Positions 15,299-23,977 are shown, counted from the stretch's first letter. The stretch: DNA of 47,433 bases from Lachnospiraceae bacterium (GCA_024683155.1 JAIKYN010000121.1:1-47433), one strand, 5' to 3'. The notes: generated by a model from the sequence alone, not told the origin. Translations and numbers: made by a program.

Positions 15299-15595
15299 AA
15301 CGAATTGCTCCTTCGATGGCTTAATTTTCTTACTTTTGTACAACGATTGGAACGGAAATCCTTTACTTCAAGAAGCACTTTTTTTACTTTTTAGTATTTT
15401 ACCATTCTTTTTTTGTACAACCTTACATATTACTTAACCCATTTCAGGCGGATTTTACAGATTTTATGTCCTGTTTACGAAAACGATAAAAACAACCATA
15501 TGGTAATATTGTCCACAAGGCGTTATAATGGAACGAACGTCGCGAAAATAGTACATATGACCTAGTCGGGTCGTTTGAGGAGTATAAGGATAGAA

Positions 15596-16660
15596 ATGAA
15601 GAAGTTACGTGCATTATTTCAAAAAGAGGATTATCTGACCCCGTCTGTATTTATCATGCGTCTGACCCGCCAGAACGGGAAGATGGAGCATGCCATCCTG
15701 CGGTATATCACCGGCATGGAGCTGTTCATGATGTTCTTTGGATTGTTCACCTTTAACCTTGCAAAACCCAGAGCAATTCTGTATATCAGCCTGTATGCAT
15801 CACTTTCCCTTGCAGCATTTCTGACAGACCTTGCTTTTATGATCGGAGAAAAGCGGAACACGGCAAAACGCAATCGTTTGATCATGGCATCCGCATACTT
15901 TTTCTATATATTTATCCATATCTGGGCCCTGACCGTTACCACCCTGGATGTGACCCGGGGAGGCACCTACTGGGCAGCCGCAACGGCGCTGGTAGCTACG
16001 GGAGTATTTATCGTGCTGCATCCCGTCTTTACCCTTTCCTTTAGCATTATGGCAACGATCTATCTGGGAGCATTGCATGTATATGTGAACGGATGGAGCG
16101 CCAGCCTGGTGAACATCCTGCTGTTTGGTATGGTTTTGTGCATCATTGATATCCGTATGTATCTCGGAGCGTATAATACCATGTATGTGGAAGACCGCCT
16201 GCGGGATCAGTCCTACCGGGACGGCCTTACCGCCATCCGTAACCGCAGAGCCCTGGAGGAAAAACTGGATCAGAATTCTCTGGCGGCAGGCGGTTGTATT
16301 GCACTGATGGATATTGATGATTTCAAGGGGATCAATGATACGGAAGGGCATCAAAGCGGGGATGAAGCACTCCTGCTGGTAGCTTCCTGCTTAAGAGACC
16401 TGTTTAAGGATGAGGAGATCTACCGTTACGGCGGTGATGAGTTTGTGATCCTGTCCGAACATAATACCGTGGAGACCGCAGACCGGATGAAGAAGGTGAA
16501 TGACCGCCTGGCCAATGCGGAGCGGGAGATTGATATCCGCATATCCTGCGGGATTGCTGACAATGATCCCTGCCGTACCGCAGAAGAGACCCTGGGCATG
16601 GCCGACACGGTGCTCTATCAGGTAAAGCAGAACGGAAAGGGACAGGTAGCCGTTTTTTAA
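15596..16660 (+). CDS. Membrane diguanylate cyclase (multi-TM N-terminus + GGDEF)
   Basis: MKKLRALFQKEDYLTPS...; several TM helices; DGLTAIRNRRALEE; YRYGGDEFVIL. Confidence 0.9.
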   Translation: MKKLRALFQKEDYLTPSVFIMRLTRQNGKMEHAILRYITGMELFMMFFGLFTFNLAKPRAILYISLYASLSLAAFLTDLAFMIGEKRNTAKRNRLIMASAYFFYIFIHIWALTVTTLDVTRGGTYWAAATALVATGVFIVLHPVFTLSFSIMATIYLGALHVYVNGWSASLVNILLFGMVLCIIDIRMYLGAYNTMYVEDRLRDQSYRDGLTAIRNRRALEEKLDQNSLAAGGCIALMDIDDFKGINDTEGHQSGDEALLLVASCLRDLFKDEEIYRYGGDEFVILSEHNTVETADRMKKVNDRLANAEREIDIRISCGIADNDPCRTAEETLGMADTVLYQVKQNGKGQVAVF

Positions 16661-16661
16661 C

Positions 16662-17411
16662 ATGGAAAAGAAGATCTTAGTATTTGATATGGATGATACG
16701 TTGTATCTCCGCAAAGATCCTTACTTGAAAGCCTACAGGGAATTATTCGCTTGTAGGCTTTCTTTGGATGAAGAAGAACTGTACCGCATCAGCCGAAAGT
16801 GGAGCGAGATCACCTTCCGGCAGCAGAAAGAAGGAGAGATCTCCTTAGAACAGATGCATGTGGACCGCGTGATCTTAACGTACAGGGAAATGGGAGCCTC
16901 CTTATCTCTGCAGGAAGCCTTACATTTCCAGGAGCGGTACGCGTATTATCAGGATCACATTACGCTCCGGGAGGGCATGGAGCAGATCCTGGCAGCACTG
17001 AAGGCACATGGCCGGATCCTGGGGCTGTTATCCAACGGGCCCGGAGACCATCAGAGAAAGAAGTACAAGGCCCTTGGCCTGGATGCTTATATACCGGAGT
17101 CCCATGTGATGATCTCGGGAGATCTGGGGATCCATAAGCCGGAAACGGGGATCTTCCGGGCCTATGAGGAGAAACTCCTAAAAGAAGAGAAACTCGGAAC
17201 AGAAGGTGTATTCTACATGATCGGAGACAGCCTGGAGACGGACATTGCAGGAGCAAAGGCAGCGGGCTGGAAGAGTATCCACCTGAAGAATCCGGAACTG
17301 GAGGAAGAGAGCTGCTGCAGGGCGGACTTTGAAGCGGCGGATGTAAAGGCACTTTGGGAGATCCTGAAGGATTTGGGTTGTGCAGAAAGCCGTAACACCC
17401 TAATATATTAA
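16662..17411 (+). CDS. HAD-superfamily hydrolase
   Basis: ILVFDMDDTLYLRKDP; LLSNGPGDHQRKKYKALGLD; GDLGIHKPETGIF; MIGDSLETDIAGAKAAGW. Confidence 0.92.
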   Translation: MEKKILVFDMDDTLYLRKDPYLKAYRELFACRLSLDEEELYRISRKWSEITFRQQKEGEISLEQMHVDRVILTYREMGASLSLQEALHFQERYAYYQDHITLREGMEQILAALKAHGRILGLLSNGPGDHQRKKYKALGLDAYIPESHVMISGDLGIHKPETGIFRAYEEKLLKEEKLGTEGVFYMIGDSLETDIAGAKAAGWKSIHLKNPELEEESCCRADFEAADVKALWEILKDLGCAESRNTLIY

Positions 17412-17430
17412 GAGAAAACAATCAGGAGCG

Positions 17431-18306
17431 ATGCCCATGCGTCAGGGATATCTTATTGAAAAATACAATCATATGGCGTCTGCGTACACCTGCCGGAGAC
17501 TTCTGGAAGAAGCAAAGAAGCTGGGTCTGGAGCTTCGCATGGTGGGGGCGCAGGACTGTACCGTAAAAAGCGAAGGCGTTTTCTGCGCCGGAGAGAAGCT
17601 GGAACACCGGGACTTTGCCATCCTGCGTTATAAGACGGGGAAGGCCATGGAAGCGGTGCGGGGGCTATGCGACTTTTCCTATAATTCCCCGGCTTGCTTT
17701 GACCGGTACGTCAATAAGTTTTATCAGCTGCAGGATCTGCAGGGGCATGGGATCCCACTGCCGAAGTATGTGCTGACCTATGGAAATGAAAGCCTCTTTG
17801 ACGGCTTTGCGGAAGAACTGGGACTGCCCTTTGTCATGAAGGGACTGGCTTCTTCCATGGGAAGAGAGATCTTCCTTATAAAGGACCTGGAAGATTACCG
17901 GCAGGTACTGGCGCAGTACCCGGCAGATAAGGAGTGGCTGCTGGAGGAATTCATTGCCACCAGTAAAGGACGGGATCTTCGCCTGTATGCCCTGCGAGGG
18001 GAAGTGATCGGCGCCATGATCCGTTCTTCTGCCGATGATTTTCGCTCCAATGTGGCACTGGGAGCGAAGGTAAGCGGCGTTCCCATTTCGCCCGAGATGC
18101 GGAGGATCGCCAAAGAACTGTTTGTTGTTACGGGATATGACTATGCAGGGATCGACCTGCTGTTTGGAAAAGACGACTCCATGGAGGACCTGATCTTCTG
18201 TGAGATGAATGTGATGGCAGGGATCCAGGGAATGGAAGAAGCCACCGGCGTCAATGTGGCAGGAGCTATCATCGGTATGATCCGGGACGATTTCCGGGAT
18301 GCGTAA
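17431..18306 (+). CDS. ATP-grasp family ligase, RimK-like
   Basis: GIPLPKYVLTYG; PFVMKGLASSMGREIFLIKD; WLLEEFIATSKGRDLRLYALRGEVIGAMIR; YDYAGIDLLFG...IFCEMNVMAGIQGME. Confidence 0.88.
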   Translation: MPMRQGYLIEKYNHMASAYTCRRLLEEAKKLGLELRMVGAQDCTVKSEGVFCAGEKLEHRDFAILRYKTGKAMEAVRGLCDFSYNSPACFDRYVNKFYQLQDLQGHGIPLPKYVLTYGNESLFDGFAEELGLPFVMKGLASSMGREIFLIKDLEDYRQVLAQYPADKEWLLEEFIATSKGRDLRLYALRGEVIGAMIRSSADDFRSNVALGAKVSGVPISPEMRRIAKELFVVTGYDYAGIDLLFGKDDSMEDLIFCEMNVMAGIQGMEEATGVNVAGAIIGMIRDDFRDA

Positions 18307-18323
18307 GAGGAAGAGAACGTAAG

Positions 18324-19667
18324 ATGAATTTCGAAGAAGCGATCAATGAGGTCTATGCTTCCCATATGGCAGCAGAACCTTATCAGGACCGGTACACACC
18401 GGATATCATAAAGCGCCATCCGGAGCTGACCAAAGAGCTGTTGGAAAAACTGGCAGGAGAACAGACGGTTCCCACCGTACTGGTTACCGGCAGTAAGGGA
18501 AAAGGCTCCGCAGCCTGTATGTTACAGGCTCTCCTCATGGAAGAAGGAGACTGCGGTCTTATGACCAGCCCCCACCTTCATGATTTTAACGACCGGTTCC
18601 GGGTAAACCGGGATATTATTCCGGAAGAGGACTTTCGCCGGATCGTGGAAGGATTAAAGCCTTCCTTTGACGGGATCCAAAGCGCCATCCCCAAAGAGTG
18701 GTGTATCAGCCCCATGGGCTGGCAGGCTGCCATCGCACTGACCTATTTCCGGGAAAAACAGGTTTCTTATCGTATCCTGGAGTGCGGCAAAGGGGTAAAA
18801 AGCGACGATGTGGGCAATGTGCCTCATGAGTATGCCCTGATCAACGGGATCTTCCGGGAACACACCCGGGAGCTGGGCCCTGAATTAATGGATATTGCAG
18901 GAAATAAAGTGGCCATCCTTTCCCCGGATACAAAGGTAGCAGCCATCGCCCCGCAGGAGCCGGAGGTACTGGCGCTGTTTCGGGAACGGGCGAAGGAAAC
19001 GGGCACCATACTGCTGGTGTACGGGGAAGACTTCGAAGCCTGCAATATTGCTTACAGTAAGCAGGGGATGGTATTTGATGTGCGGACAACGCAGCAGTAT
19101 TATAAAGAAGTGCGTGTACCTCTGTTAGGAGAGCACCAGGCACGAAATGCGGCACTGGCCATTGCACTGGCGGAACAGATCACAACGGTGCAGGTGAAGG
19201 CCCTGGAGAAGATCTCCTGGCCGGGACGGATGGAAGTGGTTTCCACGGAGCCGTTCTGTATGGTGGATGCCACCATTAACCGGGAAAGTGCCAAAGAAGT
19301 GGTCAAGGTGCTGGAGGAGCTGCGCCGGGAAAAAGCACTGGATACAGAAGAAAAACTGACTTTTGTCATCGGTGTGCCGGATGATAAGGATTATTTCGGG
19401 GTGGTGAGCACCATGTTACCCTATGCCAAAGAGGTGATCCTGACCGGTACGGTGAACCGCAGATACGTATTTGCCGGAGGGCAGAAGCCAAGGCTGGAGG
19501 AAGCCTATCCGGAGATGACCTTCCATGTCGTCACGGATCTTCGGGAGCTTCCGGAATTATCAAAGAAATCGTTGCAGACAGGCGGATGGAAGAAAGGTCC
19601 TGTAGTGATCCTGGGAACCACCGCACTGATGGAAAATGTATATTCCCCTGCGATCCTGGGTTACTGA
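18324..19667 (+). CDS. Mur ligase family protein, FolC-like
   Basis: VPTVLVTGSKGKGSAACMLQAL P-loop; MTSPHLHDFNDRFRVNRDII; LLGEHQARNAALAIALAE; SWPGRMEVV. Confidence 0.85.
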   Translation: MNFEEAINEVYASHMAAEPYQDRYTPDIIKRHPELTKELLEKLAGEQTVPTVLVTGSKGKGSAACMLQALLMEEGDCGLMTSPHLHDFNDRFRVNRDIIPEEDFRRIVEGLKPSFDGIQSAIPKEWCISPMGWQAAIALTYFREKQVSYRILECGKGVKSDDVGNVPHEYALINGIFREHTRELGPELMDIAGNKVAILSPDTKVAAIAPQEPEVLALFRERAKETGTILLVYGEDFEACNIAYSKQGMVFDVRTTQQYYKEVRVPLLGEHQARNAALAIALAEQITTVQVKALEKISWPGRMEVVSTEPFCMVDATINRESAKEVVKVLEELRREKALDTEEKLTFVIGVPDDKDYFGVVSTMLPYAKEVILTGTVNRRYVFAGGQKPRLEEAYPEMTFHVVTDLRELPELSKKSLQTGGWKKGPVVILGTTALMENVYSPAILGY

Positions 19668-19693
19668 GCCGGAGATCGGGAAACGGAGAAAAA

Positions 19694-20638
19694 ATGAGTA
19701 ATGTGGTTGTATTTGGCGGCGGAACAGGACTTTCCTGTTTGCTTAGCGGCCTTAAATTGTTTCCGGTGGATGTTACCACCATTATCACGGTAACGGACAA
19801 CGGCAGCAGTACCGGTGTTTTAAAAGAAGAACTGGACATTCCCGCGGTGGGTGACGTGGGCAAGGTGCTCCTTTCCATGGCCAATGTGGATAAAGATTAT
19901 ATCCGCCTTCTGCGGTATCGTTTTAAAAAAGGAGAGACCCTGAATAATCATCCTGTGCGGAACATTCTGCTGGCAGCACTTATCGATCTCAAAGGGAATC
20001 TCACCGATGCTACCCGGTATATGTCGGAGCTGCTTAAGATCAAGGGTACGGTGCTTCCGCTTACCGAGGAGAAGATCGACCTGGTAGGCATTGGAAAGGA
20101 CGGCAATTACTTCGGGGAAGAGGAAGTAAGCCGCAACATTTCCAAGATCGAGCGTCTGACCCTGGACCACCCGGTAACGGTAAGTCAGGAGATCCAGGAC
20201 AAGATCCGAAATGCCAGCCTCATCATCTTCAGTCCGGGAAGTCTGTACACCAGTATCATTCCCAATCTGCTGGCAGACGGCGTGAAGGAAGCCATTGACG
20301 AGAGCAAGGCACCTCTTATGTATGTGGCCAATCTGGTGACCCAGCCCGGGGAGACCGATGATGCGTCCTTAAGCTCGCATCTGCGGGTGTTAAATTCTTA
20401 TCTGGGAAAACGGAAGCTGGACATCACCATTGCCAACAATGCGGTGATCAACGAAGAAGTAACCGCCCGCTACCTGGAGCAGGAGAACAAGAAGGTGGTG
20501 GAGATCGACCGGGACAACGTGGACATCGACATCATTGCCGACTCCATCTTCACCCTGGAGAACGGAACCATCCGCCACAACGCTTTGAAGACGGCGTACC
20601 TGATCTTCTCCTACCTCATGGACAAGGATCTGGAGTAA
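19694..20638 (+). CDS. YvcK/CofD-like family protein
   Basis: MSNVVVFGGGTGLSCLLSGLKLFP; VTDNGSSTGVLKEEL; FSPGSLYTSIIPNLLADGV; NLVTQPGETDDAS. True start at 19694 rather than 19586. Confidence 0.85.
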   Translation: MSNVVVFGGGTGLSCLLSGLKLFPVDVTTIITVTDNGSSTGVLKEELDIPAVGDVGKVLLSMANVDKDYIRLLRYRFKKGETLNNHPVRNILLAALIDLKGNLTDATRYMSELLKIKGTVLPLTEEKIDLVGIGKDGNYFGEEEVSRNISKIERLTLDHPVTVSQEIQDKIRNASLIIFSPGSLYTSIIPNLLADGVKEAIDESKAPLMYVANLVTQPGETDDASLSSHLRVLNSYLGKRKLDITIANNAVINEEVTARYLEQENKKVVEIDRDNVDIDIIADSIFTLENGTIRHNALKTAYLIFSYLMDKDLE

Positions 20639-20643
20639 CGATG

Positions 20644-20881
20644 CTTGTTGCGGCCCCTCGGGGCGGTGCGGCTACCCTGCACGCACACCGATGCAACGAC
20701 TCCGCCAAGCTAACGGCTAACTTCGCTCTAATTCGAATCAACTGGTGAGCCGGTAAAATACACCGTCTCACCGGACAGTTGTTTCTCATAAGGCTTCGTA
20801 AGCCGTGGATCTTGGCTTCGCTAAGAACGCATCGTAAATTGTGTGCTTAGCAGGGCAGCCGCACCGCTTAGGGGCCGCAAG
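20644..20881. repeat. ~240-bp long imperfect inverted repeat (cruciform-forming, MITE/REP-like or structured RNA)
   Basis: Left arm CTTGTTGCGGCCCCTCGGGGCGGTGCGGCTACCCTGCACGCACACCGATGC (20644-20694) is the near-exact reverse complement of 20830-20881; nested inner arms continue to an apex near 20755-20762. Confidence 0.8.
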
Positions 20882-22621: not shown

Positions 22622-23977
22622 ATGTCCATGGATATAGAAGAATTAAACGCAAAGCTTCAGGAACAGGAAGCCATGCTGGAAGATGCGGAAAAGCAGCTTC
22701 AGCTGCTGATCGATAACATTCCCGGCGGGATCCTTACCTATGAGGAGGAAAGCGGTAAGTTCCTTACCATTTCCAAGGGCTGTCTGGAGATATTCGGCTG
22801 CGACGAAGGAAGCTTTCGTGATTTTTATTACAATAATTTTGAACTGTTTATCGCAAAGCAGGATCGCCAGAAGGTGAAGGATCTCATTGAGGAGCAGCTG
22901 AATTTCCTTGGCAATGCGGAAGTAACCTTCCGTGTGCGGGACCTGCTGGGTGAGACCAAGTATATTGCATATCGCGGTAAACGATTTGAGCGGCGGGACG
23001 GCATTAAGCAGGTGTATGCAGTGATCGAGGATGTGACCGAACAGACCGAGGTACAACAGCAGCTGCAGCGGATCGCCAATACCCTTTATCTGGAAACCCA
23101 GCGGTATCAGCTTCTTCAGGAAGCCGTAGACGATATTACCTTCGACTACAACCTGGAAACCGATACCATGGAATATTTTATGCCTACGGAAGGATCTTCC
23201 CGTAAGACCATTCACCAGTTCATGGAGAAGGGCAGATTGTCCGAGTACATCGAGTCCAAGGACCTGGTGGATATGACCGACAACTGGAAAGCGCTTCTGG
23301 AAGAACCCATGAAGAACATCGTGGAATGCCGGATCTATATTTCTTCCCGTAAGAAATATGTATGGTCCCGTGTGTATGTGGCAAGCTTTACGGATCCCGA
23401 TGATAAGGTAGCCCGTATTGTGGGCAGTATCAAGGATATTTCCGCGGAACGCAAGGAGATCGATGCCTTAAATAAGCAGGCCAACTGTGATACCATGACC
23501 GGTCTTTATAATAAGCGGGCCATGCAGATGCTGGTGAAAGACTACCTGCGTAAGCACGGTGACGGGTATGAGCATGCAGTCCTTATGGTGGATGCGGATA
23601 ACTTCAAGGCCGTAAATGATAACCTGGGCCATCTGTACGGGGACGAGGTGATCAAATTTGTGGCGAAGTCCATTCGTTCGACCTTCCGTGAAAGCGACTT
23701 TGTGGGCCGTGTAGGCGGTGACGAGTTCCTCATTTTCATGAAGAATGCGGATCTGGATGCAGCCAGGATGCGTGCCGGCAAATTAAATGAAAAAATGCGT
23801 CAGACCTTTGAGCATGACGGGATCACCATCCGGATCACCTGCAGTATCGGTATCGCTTTATACCCCAAGCACGGTACGGATTACGAGACCTTGTACAAGG
23901 TGGCTGACGAGGCATTATATAAAGCAAAAGAAAGCGGAAGAGACAGATATGAACTCACAGACGAAGAAGACGAATAA
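22622..23977 (+). CDS. PAS-domain diguanylate cyclase (GGDEF)
   Basis: PAS-like LLIDNIPGGILTYEEESGKFLTISKGCLEIFGC; VIEDVTEQTE; DTMTGLYNKRAM; RESDFVGRVGGDEFLIF. Confidence 0.93.
   Translation: MSMDIEELNAKLQEQEAMLEDAEKQLQLLIDNIPGGILTYEEESGKFLTISKGCLEIFGCDEGSFRDFYYNNFELFIAKQDRQKVKDLIEEQLNFLGNAEVTFRVRDLLGETKYIAYRGKRFERRDGIKQVYAVIEDVTEQTEVQQQLQRIANTLYLETQRYQLLQEAVDDITFDYNLETDTMEYFMPTEGSSRKTIHQFMEKGRLSEYIESKDLVDMTDNWKALLEEPMKNIVECRIYISSRKKYVWSRVYVASFTDPDDKVARIVGSIKDISAERKEIDALNKQANCDTMTGLYNKRAMQMLVKDYLRKHGDGYEHAVLMVDADNFKAVNDNLGHLYGDEVIKFVAKSIRSTFRESDFVGRVGGDEFLIFMKNADLDAARMRAGKLNEKMRQTFEHDGITIRITCSIGIALYPKHGTDYETLYKVADEALYKAKESGRDRYELTDEEDE

Follow-up and report, generated by a model that had tools for sequence, protein, structure and literature searches.

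A FolC-like Mur ligase of a distinct Bacillota clade and its ATP-grasp neighbour as candidate partners in an amide-forming pathway of a Lachnospiraceae bacterium

Ligases of the RimK/ATP-grasp and Mur/FolC families use ATP to activate a carboxylate as an acyl phosphate, which is then coupled to an amine. Cyanophycin synthetase CphA1 combines both folds with a hydrolase activity, that of its metallopeptidase-like N domain, by which primers are made (PMC9262961), and the RimK-like enzymes MptN and MyfB build glutamate tails on cofactors, long ones in the case of MyfB (PMC8141765). Here we analyse a locus at positions 16662-20638 of a 47,433-nt stretch of gut Lachnospiraceae DNA (the window; contig C251 of the metagenome-assembled genome G000, 2.7 Mb and 78 % complete), in which four genes of one orientation encode, in this order, a HAD hydrolase, an ATP-grasp ligase of the RimK family, a Mur ligase resembling FolC and a GlmR/YvcK protein, the intervals between them being 19, 17 and 26 nt long (Table 1). 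A preliminary description of this DNA had read the four genes as a candidate biosynthetic operon with two different amide-bond-forming ligase folds, possibly related to F420 or folate side chains. As a whole this interpretation is partly supported: open reading frames and family scans reproduced its gene layout exactly and the ligase pair stood up, being conserved in Peptoniphilus, whereas the cofactor links did not. We give an even chance to the reading that the ATP-grasp and Mur enzymes form amide bonds one after the other in a single undescribed pathway, apart from folate and F420 metabolism.

The Mur ligase shares with FolC/FPGS (TIGR01499; L. casei 1FGS, T. maritima 1O5Z) the fold, the domain order, the Walker A motif, the carbamate-lysine position, the SPHL region and the DKD motif, and its closest solved structures, both by sequence and by a model of moderate confidence (predicted local distance difference test, pLDDT, 66), are FPGS/FolC. 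However, GSKGKGS stands in its P-loop, xDD replaces DATN, the His of DGAHN has become Ile, and D-H has become E-H. In the window protein these motifs read T55-S62 (TGSKGKGSA) for the P-loop, E153CGKG, E179H180, K195 where Mur ligases have their carbamylated Lys, D315ATIN319 at the site of FolC's DGAHN, and D353DKDY, and in the alignment CGKGVKSDDV stands where canonical FolC has G-G-x-x-DATN. The enzyme retains its ATP site and both catalytic residues, Lys and His, and its substrate probably differs from that of FolC because the DGAHN and G-G-x-x-DATN motifs are lost. The P-loop letters, correctly reported before as departing from classic FolC, are by themselves a weak sign of novelty, since eukaryotic FPGS presumably has a GTKGKGS-like P-loop; the changes in DGAHN and DATN are better evidence.

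In a phylogenetic tree, whose root is not fixed, all GSKGKGS sequences fall on one side of a 100/100 branch with respect to canonical FolC, and the stem of this clade is long (0.9-1.2 changes per column). Its members come from the window genus, Peptoniphilus, a second clostridial genus (g454), one further genome and many Bacillota families. The P-loop is GSKGKGS, or GSKGKGT in the most divergent branch; G(K/R)G..xDD takes the place of FolC GGR.DATN (with GG retained in L180, L183 and L184), E-H that of D-H, and Ile occupies the His position of DGAHN in every clade member examined, the FolC rows having the canonical motifs. Almost all members retain the P-loop, the carbamylated-Lys position and the DKD motif. 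Furthermore, a separate canonical folC, for which the preliminary description had proposed a search, was found in the window genome itself (G000:C324, with AGTNGKGS and DGGHN), so that the Mur ligase is not its sole folC; another lies near valS in the sister species G001, and several other genomes likewise contain a canonical folC in addition to the GSKGKGS-clade gene. Judged by clade, motifs and the coexisting folC, the window Mur ligase is not an ordinary FolC, as had been proposed, and it is a member of a separate clade that spans the Bacillota.

The TIGR01499 cut-off was passed by the window Mur ligase and by six other clade members scanned, so standard annotation would name such proteins FolC. 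We found no description of the GSKGKGS clade in the open-licence papers searched; the FolC2 of the literature is a different protein (COG1478, CofE-like). A first contig search with a single query sequence gave no match, relatives of the Mur protein were absent from the plasmids and viral contigs searched, and the class-level profile matches in G453 and G769 proved to be canonical FolC. Within the clade, the divergent GSKGKGT branch (L191-L193) is found as a tandem of two Mur-type ligases, lying behind panB-panC-panD in L191 and L193; elsewhere the Mur gene stands right after a phosphoglucose-isomerase-like gene (PF00342) in two Bacillota families and upstream of nadABC in one (L174-L181).

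Among known systems the ATP-grasp ligase comes closest to the alpha-L-glutamate ligases RimK, MptN and MyfB and passes TIGR00768, but reaches no equivalog cut-off (MptN 86 of 350 bits, CofF 40 of 300). Its relatives are 51 % identical in G053 and 43 % in Peptoniphilus lacrimalis, a species of another bacterial family. There (L082) the order is valS - canonical folC - a 680-aa partner protein - ATP-grasp - Mur, with overlaps of 4 and 8 nt between the last three genes, which run head to tail; like the ATP-grasp, the Mur ligase there shares 43 % identity with its window counterpart. Because the pair recurs in a second family, its linkage is neither chance nor an accident of the window genus. In G832 (L183) a RimK-type ATP-grasp gene is convergent to Mur. 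Conservation within the genus, in contrast, says little about function: G001, the only other species of the genus examined, has the same gene order (identities of 70 % for ATP-grasp, 80 % for Mur and 94 % for YvcK), but synteny extends from one ABC transporter to the next, far beyond the four genes, and was therefore rejected as functional evidence.

The 680-aa partner has an N-terminal part resembling N-formylglutamate amidohydrolase (FGase), a middle part without family, then a CDC48_N-like double-psi barrel and, at the C-terminus, a hydrophobic segment, a putative membrane anchor. The FGase part is weak in most members and above the Pfam cut-off in G832 (PF05013, 33.3 bits vs 28.9). The partner gene directly follows Mur in the genus g454 (L105, L107, L108); in G832 (L183) it is split over two genes, one for an FGase and one for a barrel protein, with Mur next in line. 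The window genus carries it unlinked to the ligases, as the C-terminal two thirds at a contig end in G000:C32 and as two adjacent genes in G001:C34; outside this genus it was found in none of the 96 other relatives searched. The full-length partner occurs in four of 391 class-level genomes, each of which also has Mur; counted by genus this amounts to 2/2 vs 3/223 (p about 1e-4, with no correction for descent).

From family chemistry, each ligase would convert a carboxylate with ATP to an acyl phosphate and couple it to the amine of an amino acid, and the altered motifs make it probable that the acceptor of the Mur enzyme, the incoming amino acid or both are other than folate and glutamate. The FGase-like, membrane-anchored partner would, given its linkage, cut, edit or recycle the amide product, and GlmR, HAD and GGDEF would be neighbours in the window genus, outside the core. 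Taken together, this suggests a ligase-plus-hydrolase system that may form and trim an amide-linked amino-acid product, following a logic like that of CphA1 without belonging to its family. More doubtful, and offered tentatively, is the wider proposal that a widespread Bacillota Mur family, together with ATP-grasp and an FGase-type hydrolase, makes or remodels a new amino-acid polymer or amino-acid-tailed cofactor, as a convergent three-gene counterpart of cyanophycin synthetase. What appears new here is a new combination of known folds, together with a distinct clade that standard models label FolC.

Several observations weigh against a pathway built on both ligases and the partner. The g454 genomes have Mur and the partner and no ATP-grasp of the window kind, and the ATP-grasp is therefore not obligatory. 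Conversely, in G053 the ATP-grasp occurs alone, Mur and partner both being absent. The partner was not detected in G794, which has Mur, nor within the examined stretches around Mur in six families (f121, f184, f139, f116, f206, f221), where the neighbours are phosphoglucose isomerase, nadABC, valS-folC and hpf, and its AlphaFold model from one sequence was unusable (pLDDT 32). Finally, the SPHL..F.ER region of FolC is kept across the clade, and a folate-like substrate may therefore still bind. The core of the system may thus be the Mur enzyme with variable partners. That each ligase acts alone, their adjacency being conserved block synteny, would accommodate the separate occurrences of either gene and the syntenic block of the two species, but we hold it to be quite improbable, as the genes are adjacent and overlapping again at 43 % identity in Peptoniphilus, and an ATP-grasp gene adjoins Mur in G832.

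It is unlikely, in our judgement, that the Mur ligase represents a divergent additional FolC, an FPGS isoenzyme adding glutamate or another amino acid to folates, with the ATP-grasp adding alpha-linked glutamate to the same tail. Its TIGR01499 score, its FPGS-like structural relatives, its position beside canonical folC in several lineages and the nearby fchA and folD of the window would all agree with this; yet the same genomes already hold a canonical folC, DGAHN and DATN are changed across the examined clade members, the stem branch is long, and in g454 and G832 the gene has no folate-gene neighbours. Somewhat less likely still is a split cyanophycin-like system, in which the ATP-grasp would extend an amino-acid backbone, Mur would attach an amino acid as side chain and the polymer would be cleaved by the FGase-like protein, as the N, G and M domains of CphA1 do. 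The three CphA1 activities are indeed represented, and CphA1 matches the Mur model structurally, at a level far below FPGS. Membership of the family was rejected, however, as the ATP-grasp scores 21.5 bits against a TIGR02068 cut-off of 850, the Mur protein is not listed, and two separate genes encode what CphA1 has in one chain; besides, the Mur part is FolC-derived and not MurE-derived, the partner hydrolase is FGase-like, and g454 has no ATP-grasp. The cyanophycin analogy drawn in the preliminary description is hence strengthened by the hydrolase-like partner and fails as to family. Highly improbable, finally, is a cell-envelope pathway in which a precursor linked to a UDP-sugar or to the wall would be modified by the ligases, and which would explain the GlmR gene alongside: GlmR binds uridine diphosphate N-acetylglucosamine (UDP-GlcNAc) and supports its supply (PMC5482804, PMC10128056), the window protein keeps the binding residues, and the gene is rare in Lachnospiraceae (8/397 genomes), but six other genera of this family have it elsewhere, without the ligases, and in Peptoniphilus, g454 and G832 it is missing from the ligase loci.

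If the clade makes something that is not a folate, gut and environmental Firmicutes would harbour an uncharacterised amide-forming pathway whose defined parts, two ligases plus a hydrolase-like protein, can be cloned, and folate pathway reconstructions that count clade genes as folC would err. A clade of Mur ligases that passes the FolC model is liable to misannotation as a folate enzyme despite its changed amino-acid motif and a coexisting true FolC; the two can be told apart by a short motif, GSKGKGS together with a non-His DGxIN.

Table 1. Features of the ligase locus and its flanks in the window.
Feature	Coordinates	Strand	Evidence and remarks
GGDEF diguanylate-cyclase-like gene	15575..16660	+	PF00990; ends 1 nt upstream of the HAD start codon
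HAD-IA family hydrolase	16662..17411	+	PF00702
RimK-family ATP-grasp ligase	17431..18306	+	PF08443; TIGR00768 156.5 bits vs cut-off 143.4; core component
FolC-like Mur ligase, GSKGKGS clade	18324..19667	+	PF08245; TIGR01499 196.8 bits vs 162.65; core component
GlmR/YvcK	19694..20638	+	PF01933; TIGR01826 278.6 bits vs 196
Imperfect palindromic intergenic element, ~230 nt	20649..20880	.	Not part of the ligase system

With regard to the fourth gene, which had been likened to the F420 enzyme CofD, the profile scores and residues tell another story: the protein reaches only 27.4 bits in TIGR01819 against a cut-off of 257.45, so that the F420 link was rejected, and by its passing of TIGR01826 and its conserved residues it is a GlmR/YvcK, with solved relatives 2HZB and 2O2Z. 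Its T11, N213, Y260 and R294 match T13, N217, Y264 and R300 of B. halodurans, all four UDP-GlcNAc-binding residues defined in Bacillus YvcK (PMC5482804) being kept. For Listeria a uridyltransferase activity was reported and residues D40 and D41 were tested by mutation (PMC10128056); D40 is kept in the window protein, whereas D41 is Asn, and the gene also differs from described glmR in lying outside the rapZ-glmR-whiA context. The automated open reading frame starts at 19586, within the Mur gene; we took the start listed in Table 1, which is conserved in the sister species. GlmR is linked to the ligase pair only in the window genus and is treated as a neighbour and not as a pathway part, because it occurs without the ligases in the six other genera and is missing from the ligase loci outside the window genus. 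The GAK system, where an ATP-grasp is paired with a CofD-like protein, was also considered and rejected (TIGR04356 43 of 300 bits, TIGR04357 106 of 340).

The HAD protein reached the cut-off of no equivalog model, being a generic HAD-IA, and its gene is not beside the pair in Peptoniphilus; it is probably a passenger and not part of the pathway core. No terminator-like site was found in the three gaps between the HAD, ATP-grasp, Mur and GlmR genes, and since only 1 nt separates the GGDEF gene from the HAD start codon, the transcription unit may already include it as its first gene. We regard the GGDEF gene as a neighbour in the window genus and not as a part of the ligase pathway. A further GGDEF gene lies on the other side of the region (22622-23977).

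Tandem RimK-type ATP-grasp pairs are common in Lachnospirales and neighbouring groups (L139-L146, L151); they belong to other subfamilies and were rejected as the ligase system. In several genomes they directly adjoin an FtsK-like gene and a formate-tetrahydrofolate ligase gene, these neighbours being named from their sequences. In G641 (L134:5926-9636) a cluster downstream of type IV pilus-like genes comprises, in sequence, genes for an FGase-like protein, two ATP-grasp ligases and a protein with a barrel domain, an arrangement of like logic where a second ATP-grasp takes the place of Mur.

The fchA-folD genes, from which a modified folate tail had been suggested, lie 351 nt downstream of GlmR behind the palindromic element, and this suggestion was not borne out. 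The element, between glmR and fchA, has a hairpin energy of -124 to -136 kcal/mol. It matched nothing in Rfam, and about 300 kb of sequence from the two genomes contained no other copy. Its 182-nt core (20676-20857) is 92 % identical in the sister species (L079:12296-12477) but in the opposite orientation, the flanking genes being 75-81 % identical between the two species, and its GC-rich outer arms differ between the species and pair within each. The element could be an invertible or mobile palindrome.

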